From the NCBI GenBank assembly GCA_017527495.1, contig JAFXPY010000024.1, positions 1 to 64,000 on the forward strand: 64,000 bases of DNA, read 5' to 3'. Position 1 is the first letter of the stretch; every line of letters begins with the position of its first letter. The DNA comes from Paludibacteraceae bacterium (lineage in GTDB: Bacteria; Bacteroidota; Bacteroidia; Bacteroidales; Paludibacteraceae). The notes under the pieces were generated by a model. The model saw only the letters and a list, made by a program, of their open reading frames with translations. It ran no database searches and was not told the origin of the DNA. Of the stretch, positions 3,774 through 5,490 are shown in pieces. The position numbers and the translations under genes were made by a program.

Positions 3774-3919
3774 TGCGCCAGAACTTGTGCTTCGATTATA
3801 CGGGGTTGAAGAACTCGTGTGCTTACTGGGCGAAACGAGGTGACACGTGCTACATGGTTTGCAGGCCAAGGCTTAGCCTCGACTGTCAAAGTAATGTCTG
3901 GAAAACGAATATCTTTCAT
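3770..3919 (-). CDS. Small protein, 49 aa, translationally coupled to the retropepsin-like gene
   Basis: An ATG at 3919 opens a 49-codon frame that begins MKDIRFPDITLTVEAKPWP and ends IIEAQVLAQ. Its TGA overlaps the retropepsin ATG as ATGA, the coupling seen in many operons in this window. A TATCTTTG box (3947-3940) lies just upstream on the minus strand. I do not recognise the family. Its position suggests a partner, inhibitor or substrate of the retropepsin-like protein, but that is inference. Confidence 0.5.
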   Translation of the reverse strand: MKDIRFPDITLTVEAKPWPANHVARVTSFRPVSTRVLQPRIIEAQVLAQ

Positions 3920-4020
3920 AATCAATCTTATTTGGATGGCAAAGATACATTTTTTTATATATGCTAATATTTTTTAAATATTTCTTTTTATTTTTATGAC
4001 TTTCTGCGAGTTTTACCGAT

Positions 4021-4212
4021 TTATGCTGCGATCGCTGACTGAATATTGGAGTGCGTCTGCAACATATAGAAGAGCATGTCTCCTCCGCCGACGAACGGCT
4101 CAATGTAAGTAACGTTCTCCCATTGGTCAAAGTCAGCAGGAAGCAGAGCTTCGAGTCGGTCAATGAGTTGCGTTTTACCGCCCACCCATTTGACGAATGG
4201 TTTCGCTTTCAT
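4021..4212 (-). pseudogene. N-terminal stub of a Dam-type DNA adenine methyltransferase
   Basis: The 63-codon frame starts MKAKPFVKWVGGKTQLIDRL and includes YIEPFVGGGDMLFYML, the S-adenosylmethionine motif of the D12/Dam class. It stops abruptly after SNIQSAIAA, where intact enzymes continue into VINDIN and later the DPPY catalytic motif. Neither appears downstream in any frame. This is a truncated relic, probably from a lost restriction-modification or phage element. Confidence 0.75.
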
Positions 4213-4226
4213 TTTTATTTAATTAC

Positions 4227-4461
4227 TAAAGTTTCCCACTTGGATAAATGTTATCGCGTAGCGATTATCTTTTAATAGGATAGCGGATTTTATTTCTCCA
4301 TTGATTTCCCGTTAGGGAATTTCTATGGCGAAAAAAATGAATTTAAAAGATATTCCCTAACGGGAAATAACGATGATTATCAATATAAGTGCTATTAAAA
4401 GGAAACCCCTATGGGGTATAAACTTAATAAAAGTGCTACTGACCATTAGTGGGAAACTTTA
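4227..4461. repeat. Perfect 14-bp inverted repeat TAAAGTTTCCCACT / AGTGGGAAACTTTA
   Basis: TAAAGTTTCCCACT at 4227-4240 and its exact reverse complement at 4448-4461 enclose about 207 bp that hold five hairpin modules. Related copies are at 4503-4516 (AGTGGAAAACTTTA) and 1583-1596. No transposase is present. It could be the end sequence of a small non-autonomous element. Confidence 0.5.
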
Positions 4462-4812
4462 CTATATCTATTAAAATGAAACGGCTACGCCGTAATTTTA
4501 CTAAGTGGAAAACTTTAAGAATAAAAAATATAGTGGAGTATTTGTTGTTTTAACTTTTTTTTGTACTTTTGCATTTACAAAGAGAGATATCACCTGATTT
4601 GCTAAACTTGTTATGTATCACAAATAACTAATTTAAGTTTCGCACATGGTAAATACAGCATGATATATGATTACGGCAGTTATTTAACGCCTATCGCGTT
4701 AGCAATTTTCTTTTAATAGAATATTAAGGTTATTTAAATACTTATCTCCCGTAGGGATTTCCATTTAATTTCTTAAAATCAATAGCTTAAAAGAAATTCC
4801 CTAATGGGAAAA
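4253..4812. repeat. Array of eight short hairpin modules with co-varying stems
   Basis: The gene-free stretch 4213-4942 contains a repeated module of about 26 nt: a 13-nt leader close to CTATTAAAAGGAA, a 5-nt arm, a loop TAC, TAT, TAAC or TAAT, and the complementary arm. Hairpins are at 4253-4265 (minus), 4306-4319 (minus), 4353-4366 (plus), 4405-4417 (plus), 4481-4493 (plus), 4693-4706 (minus), 4746-4758 (minus, outer pair broken) and 4797-4810 (plus). Arms differ but stay paired: ATCGC/GCGAT, TTCCC/GGGAA, ACCCC/GGGGT, ACGGC/GCCGT, ATTGC/GCGAT. Four copies keep the leader at exactly 13 nt. A degenerate ninth copy may lie near 4855. Function unknown. Confidence 0.65.
4541..4571 (+). promoter_or_regulatory. 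Consensus promoter without a close gene
   Basis: TTTG (4541-4544), 19 bp, TACTTTTG (4564-4571) is a good Bacteroidetes promoter on the plus strand. The next plausible start codon is at 4943, so either the small membrane gene has a leader of about 365 nt containing three hairpin modules, or an untranslated RNA starts near 4578. Confidence 0.5.
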
Positions 4813-4942
4813 GATAAATGAGCAAATGGTAAATGAACAAATGATTTTATGATATTTCCTACGAGAAAAACATGGATTCATCTGACACTAATAATTTATT
4901 ACTCAAAGCAATATACGAAACGTTATTTACTAATTTTAACCT

Positions 4943-5131
4943 ATGAAATTTAAAACTATTATAGCTGAATTAGGTCTTAGTGCCTTTACGGCATATTTTG
5001 TTGTCTTATTTTATATGGATGACATAGACGTTGACGATCGCCTTTCGGTATTTGGCATTGTTACTTTGTCTGTTTTTGTGTTGCTTCTAATATTATATTT
5101 TATATATCAATATTATATTTTATATATCTGA
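4943..5131 (+). CDS. Small two-helix membrane protein, 62 aa
   Basis: The product has two hydrophobic segments (about residues 9-25 and 35-60) joined by an acidic turn MDDIDVDDR. This is a helical hairpin in the inner membrane with both ends likely on the same side. I recognise no family. It is followed after 5 bp by a winged-helix protein gene, and the two are probably one transcript. The ATG at 4943 follows an AT-rich leader, as is usual here. Confidence 0.5.
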   Translation: MKFKTIIAELGLSAFTAYFVVLFYMDDIDVDDRLSVFGIVTLSVFVLLLILYFIYQYYILYI

Positions 5132-5136
5132 AATTT

Positions 5137-5490
5137 TTGAGAGATGATGACTATAAGGAAGTAGATTATAACAAAATTATGGCTGAATTTAAGACGACTC
5201 CCAAATCAAAAAGCAAAGCCGAAACAGACACCAAACGAGAAAAAATGCCATTGTATTCAGACAAAGATCCTTTAGCGGAAGATATAGCACGGTGGATAGT
5301 AAAAAACAGGGATTTCAACAAAGAAAAAATACAACGCCAGTTTTACATCGGACCGCATCGATTAGAGAGAATATTCAAATACTTAGAAAGAATTGGAGTT
5401 CTAAGCAAGGAATATTACTTAAAAGAGCGGAAAATATTGATTAGGAACAATTGGGAATTAGAACAATTGTTAGAATCTCTATACATATAA
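5137..5490 (+). CDS. Small protein with FtsK-gamma-like winged helix
   Basis: After a charged, Lys/Thr-rich N-terminal linker (to about residue 45) comes DPLAEDIARWIVKNRDFNK and then IQRQFYIGPHRLERIFKYLE. The spacing and the IGxxRxxRI pattern resemble the gamma winged-helix domain of FtsK translocases, which reads DNA polarity sequences. No ATPase domain is present, so this would be a stand-alone DNA-binding module. The first start is TTG 5137; an internal ATG at 5179 (MAEFKTT) is a good alternative and would remove 14 residues. It probably shares a transcript with the membrane protein before it. Confidence 0.5.
   Translation: MRDDDYKEVDYNKIMAEFKTTPKSKSKAETDTKREKMPLYSDKDPLAEDIARWIVKNRDFNKEKIQRQFYIGPHRLERIFKYLERIGVLSKEYYLKERKILIRNNWELEQLLESLYI

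Follow-up and report, generated by a model that had tools for sequence, protein, structure and literature searches.

Short hairpins behind a fixed A-rich leader, clustered in a 560-bp non-coding stretch of Paludibacteraceae DNA, are best read as REP-like sites, i.e., single-stranded DNA hairpins that a small transposase of the Y1/HUH type (TnpA_Y1 subclass 1.2) recognizes; we put the probability of this reading at about 0.7. It rests on a set of observations made in the window (the 64,000-nucleotide stretch analyzed), its genome, and relatives: hairpins with the same leader and loop border a Y1 gene in another genus of the family (locus L199), a sister module borders the Y1 gene of the window's own genome, the copies are dispersed in both orientations, and their stems vary yet remain paired. 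The 560-bp stretch is itself built from mobile elements, and a classical cut-and-paste transposase probably also spread the modules because many copies reside in MITE-like elements that end in terminal inverted repeats and in some cases have target-site duplications.

Hairpin modules and their covariation

A covariance model (R1), built only from TAC-loop copies of the window's genome, detects seven modules with E<0.02 between 4250 and 4813, and an eighth scores more weakly; with the latter counted, there are four per strand, as the sequence-only reading had proposed, and the stems, the loops, and a G-T pair at 4693-4706 are as it described them. The modules are intergenic within the window, and those with an AAAAG leader are the commonest kind there. 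The features are as follows:

4227-4461, complete MITE-like element (type AB), 235 bp, with terminal inverted repeats and two outward-reading module arms
4250-4279, minus strand, module: leader CTATTAAAAGATA, stem ATCGC/GCGAT, loop TAC (R1 43.3 bits, E=6e-6)
4303-4324, minus strand, inner module: degenerate leader CCATAGAAA, stem TTCCC/GGGAA, loop TAAC (R1 14.1 bits, E=1.3, weak); a 95% inverted match to 4348-4368
4339-4369, plus strand, module: leader aatTTAAAAGATA, stem TTCCC/GGGAA, loop TAAC (R1 33.1 bits)
4391-4420, plus strand, module: leader CTATTAAAAGGAA, stem ACCCC/GGGGT, loop TAT (R1 42.8 bits)
4467-4517, plus strand, right-end fragment of a second MITE (type F): a module, then the terminal repeat AAGTGGAAAACTTTA at 4503-4517
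4467-4496, plus strand, type F module: CTATTAAAATGAA followed by ACGGC TAC GCCGT (R1 36 bits)
4633 to ~4894, third element (type E), ends partly decayed
4633-4647, plus strand, terminal-repeat-like TTAAGTTTCGCACAT at the left of the type E element; it also accompanies E copies elsewhere
4690-4720, minus strand, module: leader CTATTAAAAGAAA, stem ATTGC/GCGAT with one G-U, loop TAAC (R1 30.8 bits)
4743-4772, minus strand, degenerate module: leader aaaTTAAATGGAA, stem ATCCC/GGGAG (four of five pairs), loop TAC (R1 25 bits, E=0.013)
4783-4813, plus strand, module: leader agcTTAAAAGAAA, stem TTCCC/GGGAA, loop TAAT (R1 32.3 bits)
4845-4869, plus strand, possible decayed fourth module of element E (a ninth copy): 68% identity to 4343-4367, below the model threshold
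4882-4894, plus strand, CTGACACTAATAA, resembling the right end of a second terminal-repeat family (ATCGGACACCAATAA)

The loop is TAC, TAAC, TAT, or TAAT, nearly always one of the first two, and the stem spans 5 bp in AAAAG-type modules and up to 7 bp in type F. The distance from leader to stem, already thought to be fixed, is indeed nearly invariant: among the 184 modules in the genome stretches fetched around copies, 180 have a stem that starts 10 nt past the first T of TTAAAA. Across the genome (2.47 Mb), a generalized leader-stem-loop pattern (CTATTAANANNNANNNNCTA) is matched 262 times, in both orientations and in inverted or tandem clusters, against once for the reversed control; many contigs (e.g., C12, C28, C31, C54, and C56 of G000) end inside elements, and copy numbers are thus lower bounds. 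The same leader with other stems is found 23 times in G065 and 20 times in UBA1217, a Bacteroidales metagenome assembly (controls, 0-1). A pattern search of 358 family genomes matches three, including G713 with a single match, and a scan at the level of the order gives at least two UBA1217 loci. The expectation of a dispersed family with further copies in this genome and its relatives was therefore sound.

Is the stem conserved as a sequence or as a structure? When modules are picked by leader and loop alone, with the stem ignored, 102 of 151 distinct modules have all five Watson-Crick pairs, as compared to 27 on average, and never more than 41, with partners shuffled; a positional control on 34 copies, chosen for having stems, agrees. 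Every one of the five stem positions shows more than one kind of Watson-Crick pair, and four of the five do so often. Behind the same leader, the stems are ATCGC, ACCCC, TTCCC, ATCCC, ACTCC, and ACGGC in the window's genome; in G065 they are GCCCC, and in UBA1217 mostly ACCAC. Since the copies of an element family are related to one another, the independent stem changes are fewer than these counts suggest; still, covariation exceeds chance, as had been predicted, and the stem is conserved as a structure with a sequence that is free to vary.

MITE-like elements that carry the modules

The type AB element opens with the terminal repeat TAAAGTTTCCCACTT at 4227-4241 and closes with its inverse at 4447-4461; many copies share a consensus of ~229-235 bp. 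Complete F elements are present in L138-L140. These elements have terminal inverted repeats, are short, and lack a transposase gene, as MITEs do. Each arm has two modules, ~52 nt apart, whose leaders point to the element center, and elements share this layout whether their ends are the inverted repeat TAAAGTTTCCCAC or the unrelated TTGGTGTCCGATAAAA. In the second terminal-repeat family, several elements (L090, L091, L114, L179, L183) are flanked by 9-bp target-site duplications (e.g., GTTTCGTAT in L091 and ATTACAAAA in L114). The window's type AB element has a 5-bp duplication, TACTA, at its ends, which was rejected as proof of a target-site duplication because the ends are AT-rich. Among the terminal-repeat places listed, which are not exhaustive, no autonomous partner IS with the same ends was found. 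MITE transposition may account for much of the copy number.

Tandem arrays of type F modules, with a ~54-60-nt period, form minisatellites inside a MITE (L151:150-700) and beside a Y1 gene (L228:120-540). In G065, contig C10 carries a ~198-nt tandem repeat with modules in both orientations (L135:4390-4963), at a contig end, beside a gene whose large product is repetitive. In the window, the MITE adjoins on its left a truncated D12 adenine DNA methyltransferase fragment of 63 codons (4021-4212, minus strand; PF02086, E=1.2e-8), and at 5137-5490 on the plus strand a small protein has an FtsK gamma domain (PF09397) standing alone, separate from FtsK.

Y1 transposase genes beside the hairpins

Locus L199, in genome G065, encodes an intact 153-aa Y1 transposase (PF01797, 104 bits) with DHIH and YIQNQEIHH motifs. 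Both sides of this gene are lined with modules, CTATTAAGAGAAA followed by GCCCC TA(A)C GGGGC, ~54 nt apart and in both orientations, which R1 recognizes at up to 32 bits. With its HUH motif, Y---Q--HH, and length of ~150 aa, the L199 protein belongs to subclass 1.2. The Y1 protein scores 77.7 bits against NF033573 and below the cut-off against NF047646, and its PDB relatives include the IS608 transposase. The Y--Q--HH motif is present in 37 of 42 Y1 entries, L199 included (this one gene was entered twice).

The window's own genome has a Y1 gene too. Searching with the L199 protein yields two pieces in consistent orientations, one at C25:3-116 with 38 N-terminal residues and one at C47:45400-45567 with 56 C-terminal residues; they would constitute one gene split by a contig gap. 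The C-terminal piece reads Y--N--HH, with N replacing Q. Adjoining both pieces are tandem hairpins of a sister module (CTATTAATATGCA with ACCGC/ACGGC; L227/L228), which match the type F MITE interior at ~77-86%; the window piece at 4467-4517 is of this same type. Only the sister module adjoins the Y1 gene in this genome, and the AAAAG-leader modules are found without an adjacent Y1 gene.

The same pairing recurs in G094, of genus g14, where the hairpins around the Y1 gene L204 match the interior of TTGGTGTCCG-bounded MITEs, which have the other of the two terminal repeats, when compared with L183 and L184 from the same genome and L185 from a congener (74-84% in L184 matches). The hairpins of these TTGGTGTCCG-ended MITEs (L183, L184, L185) are quite different from the window's modules. 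Resident Y1 hairpins are thus paired with MITEs in two cases, and G094 is an independent replicate. More broadly, short hairpins near 35 Y1 genes of relatives number 183, against 20 expected from shuffles, and regions at least 700 bp from Y1 genes have few. The two Y1 genes of UBA1217 are adjoined by other hairpins; at L003, L004, and L207, which lack Y--Q--HH, hairpins are not clearly enriched, and at the Y1 loci L212, L215, and L223 none were found.

Two long Y1-like proteins of the window's genome were considered as partners and rejected, since the TATTAAAA leader is absent within ~1.5 kb of either. These proteins (L015:733-1791, minus strand, 352 aa; L016:1372-2499, plus strand, 375 aa) have weak Y1_Tnp matches and DHVH/DHFH motifs, with no hairpins seen nearby, and are possibly domesticated HUH proteins.

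Mechanism, alternatives, and known systems

Could the modules instead be tandem, inward-facing intrinsic terminators? Read inward, the AAAAG-type module is a hairpin followed by TTTTCTTTTAATAG, repeated twice on each side, an array that would shield the element or insulate neighboring genes; nine terminator-like sites lie in 3900-5200 vs. 0.5 in shuffles, and the two-in, two-out arrangement places the hairpin and T-tract correctly on both sides. However, the combination of a G+C-rich stem and a T-run, which AAAAG-type modules have on the opposite strand, is absent from type F, where modules with the TTAATATGCA leader maintain the same spacing, stem, and loop but have no T-tract. Together with stems of just 5 bp and a conserved far-end CTA and TAC loop that a terminator does not need, this makes termination an unlikely function. 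Quite improbable, too, is that the hairpins are plain MITE sequence, in which case slippage would have duplicated passive repeats inside two DDE-type families and a Y1 enzyme would play no part. The terminal repeats, the 9-bp duplications of several elements, and the existence of tandem arrays, as in the Porphyromonas gingivalis BrickBuilt MITE (PMC4596501), would fit; yet passive repeats are hard to reconcile with stems that vary and stay paired, with a module that is shared by elements of two kinds, unrelated in their terminal repeats, and also lies next to Y1 genes of two genera, or with another genus where one of these terminal repeats surrounds the Y1-linked hairpins of its own genome.

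The sequence-only reading had taken the G-T pair at 4693-4706 as a hint of selection on RNA from the leader strand, i.e., a small RNA or an mRNA-stabilizing hairpin, and the whole 235-nt element does fold well as RNA from either strand (z -7.5 and -9.1), although inverted repeats would be expected to do so. This hint is not borne out: among 23 modules with a single mismatch of the G-U/C-A type, the leader strand is the G-U-tolerant one in 12 and the opposite strand in 11, so that RNA from neither strand is favored; modules run half each way, in both orientations within each element; and Rfam has no match above the gathering threshold, with only microRNA matches far below it. An RNA element is thus highly improbable, and the conservation of structure with no strand bias fits single-stranded DNA. 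Tyrosine-recombinase and CRISPR readings were dropped on inspection, as the spacers are themselves repeated and the modules invert.

How would a REP-like site work? With IS608, ISDra2, and TnpA_REP as models for the bind-and-cut mechanism (PMC8266576), the hairpin would fold when its strand becomes single, e.g., on the lagging-strand template, and the Y1 enzyme would bind the folded strand at its stem and at the conserved T-A-(A)-C loop. The leader would supply a guide and the cleavage position, the conserved C-T-A at its start being comparable to the C|T cut of TnpA_REP, and hairpin pairs would then be excised, inserted, or strand-transferred. Cleavage or movement by the Y1 enzyme is what we infer from this analogy. 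C-T-A (as CTAW) occurs upstream of stems 58 times vs. 21 expected, at 19 of 28 loci, a modest enrichment that is no more than suggestive, since tandem copies are counted. Weighing against the REP reading are this modest signal, the AAAAG-leader modules without a neighboring Y1 gene in the window's genome, the contig gap and the Y--N--HH piece of that genome's Y1 gene, the other hairpins at UBA1217, the missing GTAG/GTGG foot, the Y1 loci that lack hairpins, and the share of copies that MITE transposition may explain.

REP/TnpA_REP/RAYT systems (REPtrons, BIMEs, REPINs) likewise comprise numerous short hairpins between genes, solitary or paired in inverted orientation, that border a Y1/HUH gene; their published cut is C|T, which compares with the C-T-A starting the window leader, and Marinomonas REPMb has a 5-bp stem, as do window modules (PMC6006769, PMC8266576, PMC3116915). 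As in those systems, copies flank a Y1 gene of the same genome, at L199 with the same leader and at L227/L228 with the sister module, and the window family is numerous (262 copies) and clustered. The differences are that (i) window modules lack a GTAG/GTGG foot 0-2 nt 5' of the stem, where the leader has AGAAA, TGCA, and the like; (ii) their stem follows a 13-nt A-rich leader; (iii) the protein linked to them carries the Y--Q--HH motif, that of subclass 1.2, and is nearer to IS200 transposases; and (iv) AAAAG-type stems, at 5 bp, fall short of the 7-20 bp rule of the 2018 search, although shorter REPs exist, such as REPMb.

The linked proteins resemble subclass 1.2 in length (~150 aa), DH[IV]H and Y---Q--HH motifs, and Bacteroidota origin (PMC6006769). 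The 2018 survey lists this subclass as having no REPs and generally no terminal IS200 hairpins (PMC6006769), whereas hairpin arrays flank most genes examined here; that search required GTAG/GTGG and stems of at least 7 bp (PMC6006769) and would therefore miss these hairpins. Subclass 2.6, with its "atypical secondary structures," shares the phylum, hairpins by the gene, and copies elsewhere (PMC6006769), but has a different Y motif (YIH[QN]NP), its structures being compared by description rather than by sequence. The BrickBuilt and PgRS elements of P. gingivalis are also MITEs from Bacteroidales, with tandem repeats inside and inverted repeats at the ends (PMC4596501); unlike window elements, they have 23- or 41-nt repeats with no leader-hairpin and no linked Y1 gene. 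The sequence-only reading, which knew of no described element with this layout, missed that the modules lie inside MITE-like elements and follow the layout of REP-like repeats by Y1 genes. This REP/Y1 layout is already known; hairpins bordering subclass 1.2 Y1 genes are new within the open-access literature searched.

It is about an even bet that subclass 1.2 Y1 proteins are in general REP-type enzymes with hairpins of their own (short stem, T-A-C loop, C-T-A leader) which, in several Bacteroidales, form the bodies of classical MITEs, with one repeat spread by HUH and DDE enzymes at once. The modules provide a candidate substrate for a Y1 transposase group that previously had none, and activity can be tested directly with oligonucleotides. 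Since stems differ among genomes while leader and loop are kept, the family is a natural experiment on what HUH enzymes read, and it suggests that the elements of one transposition system can carry the repeats of another.
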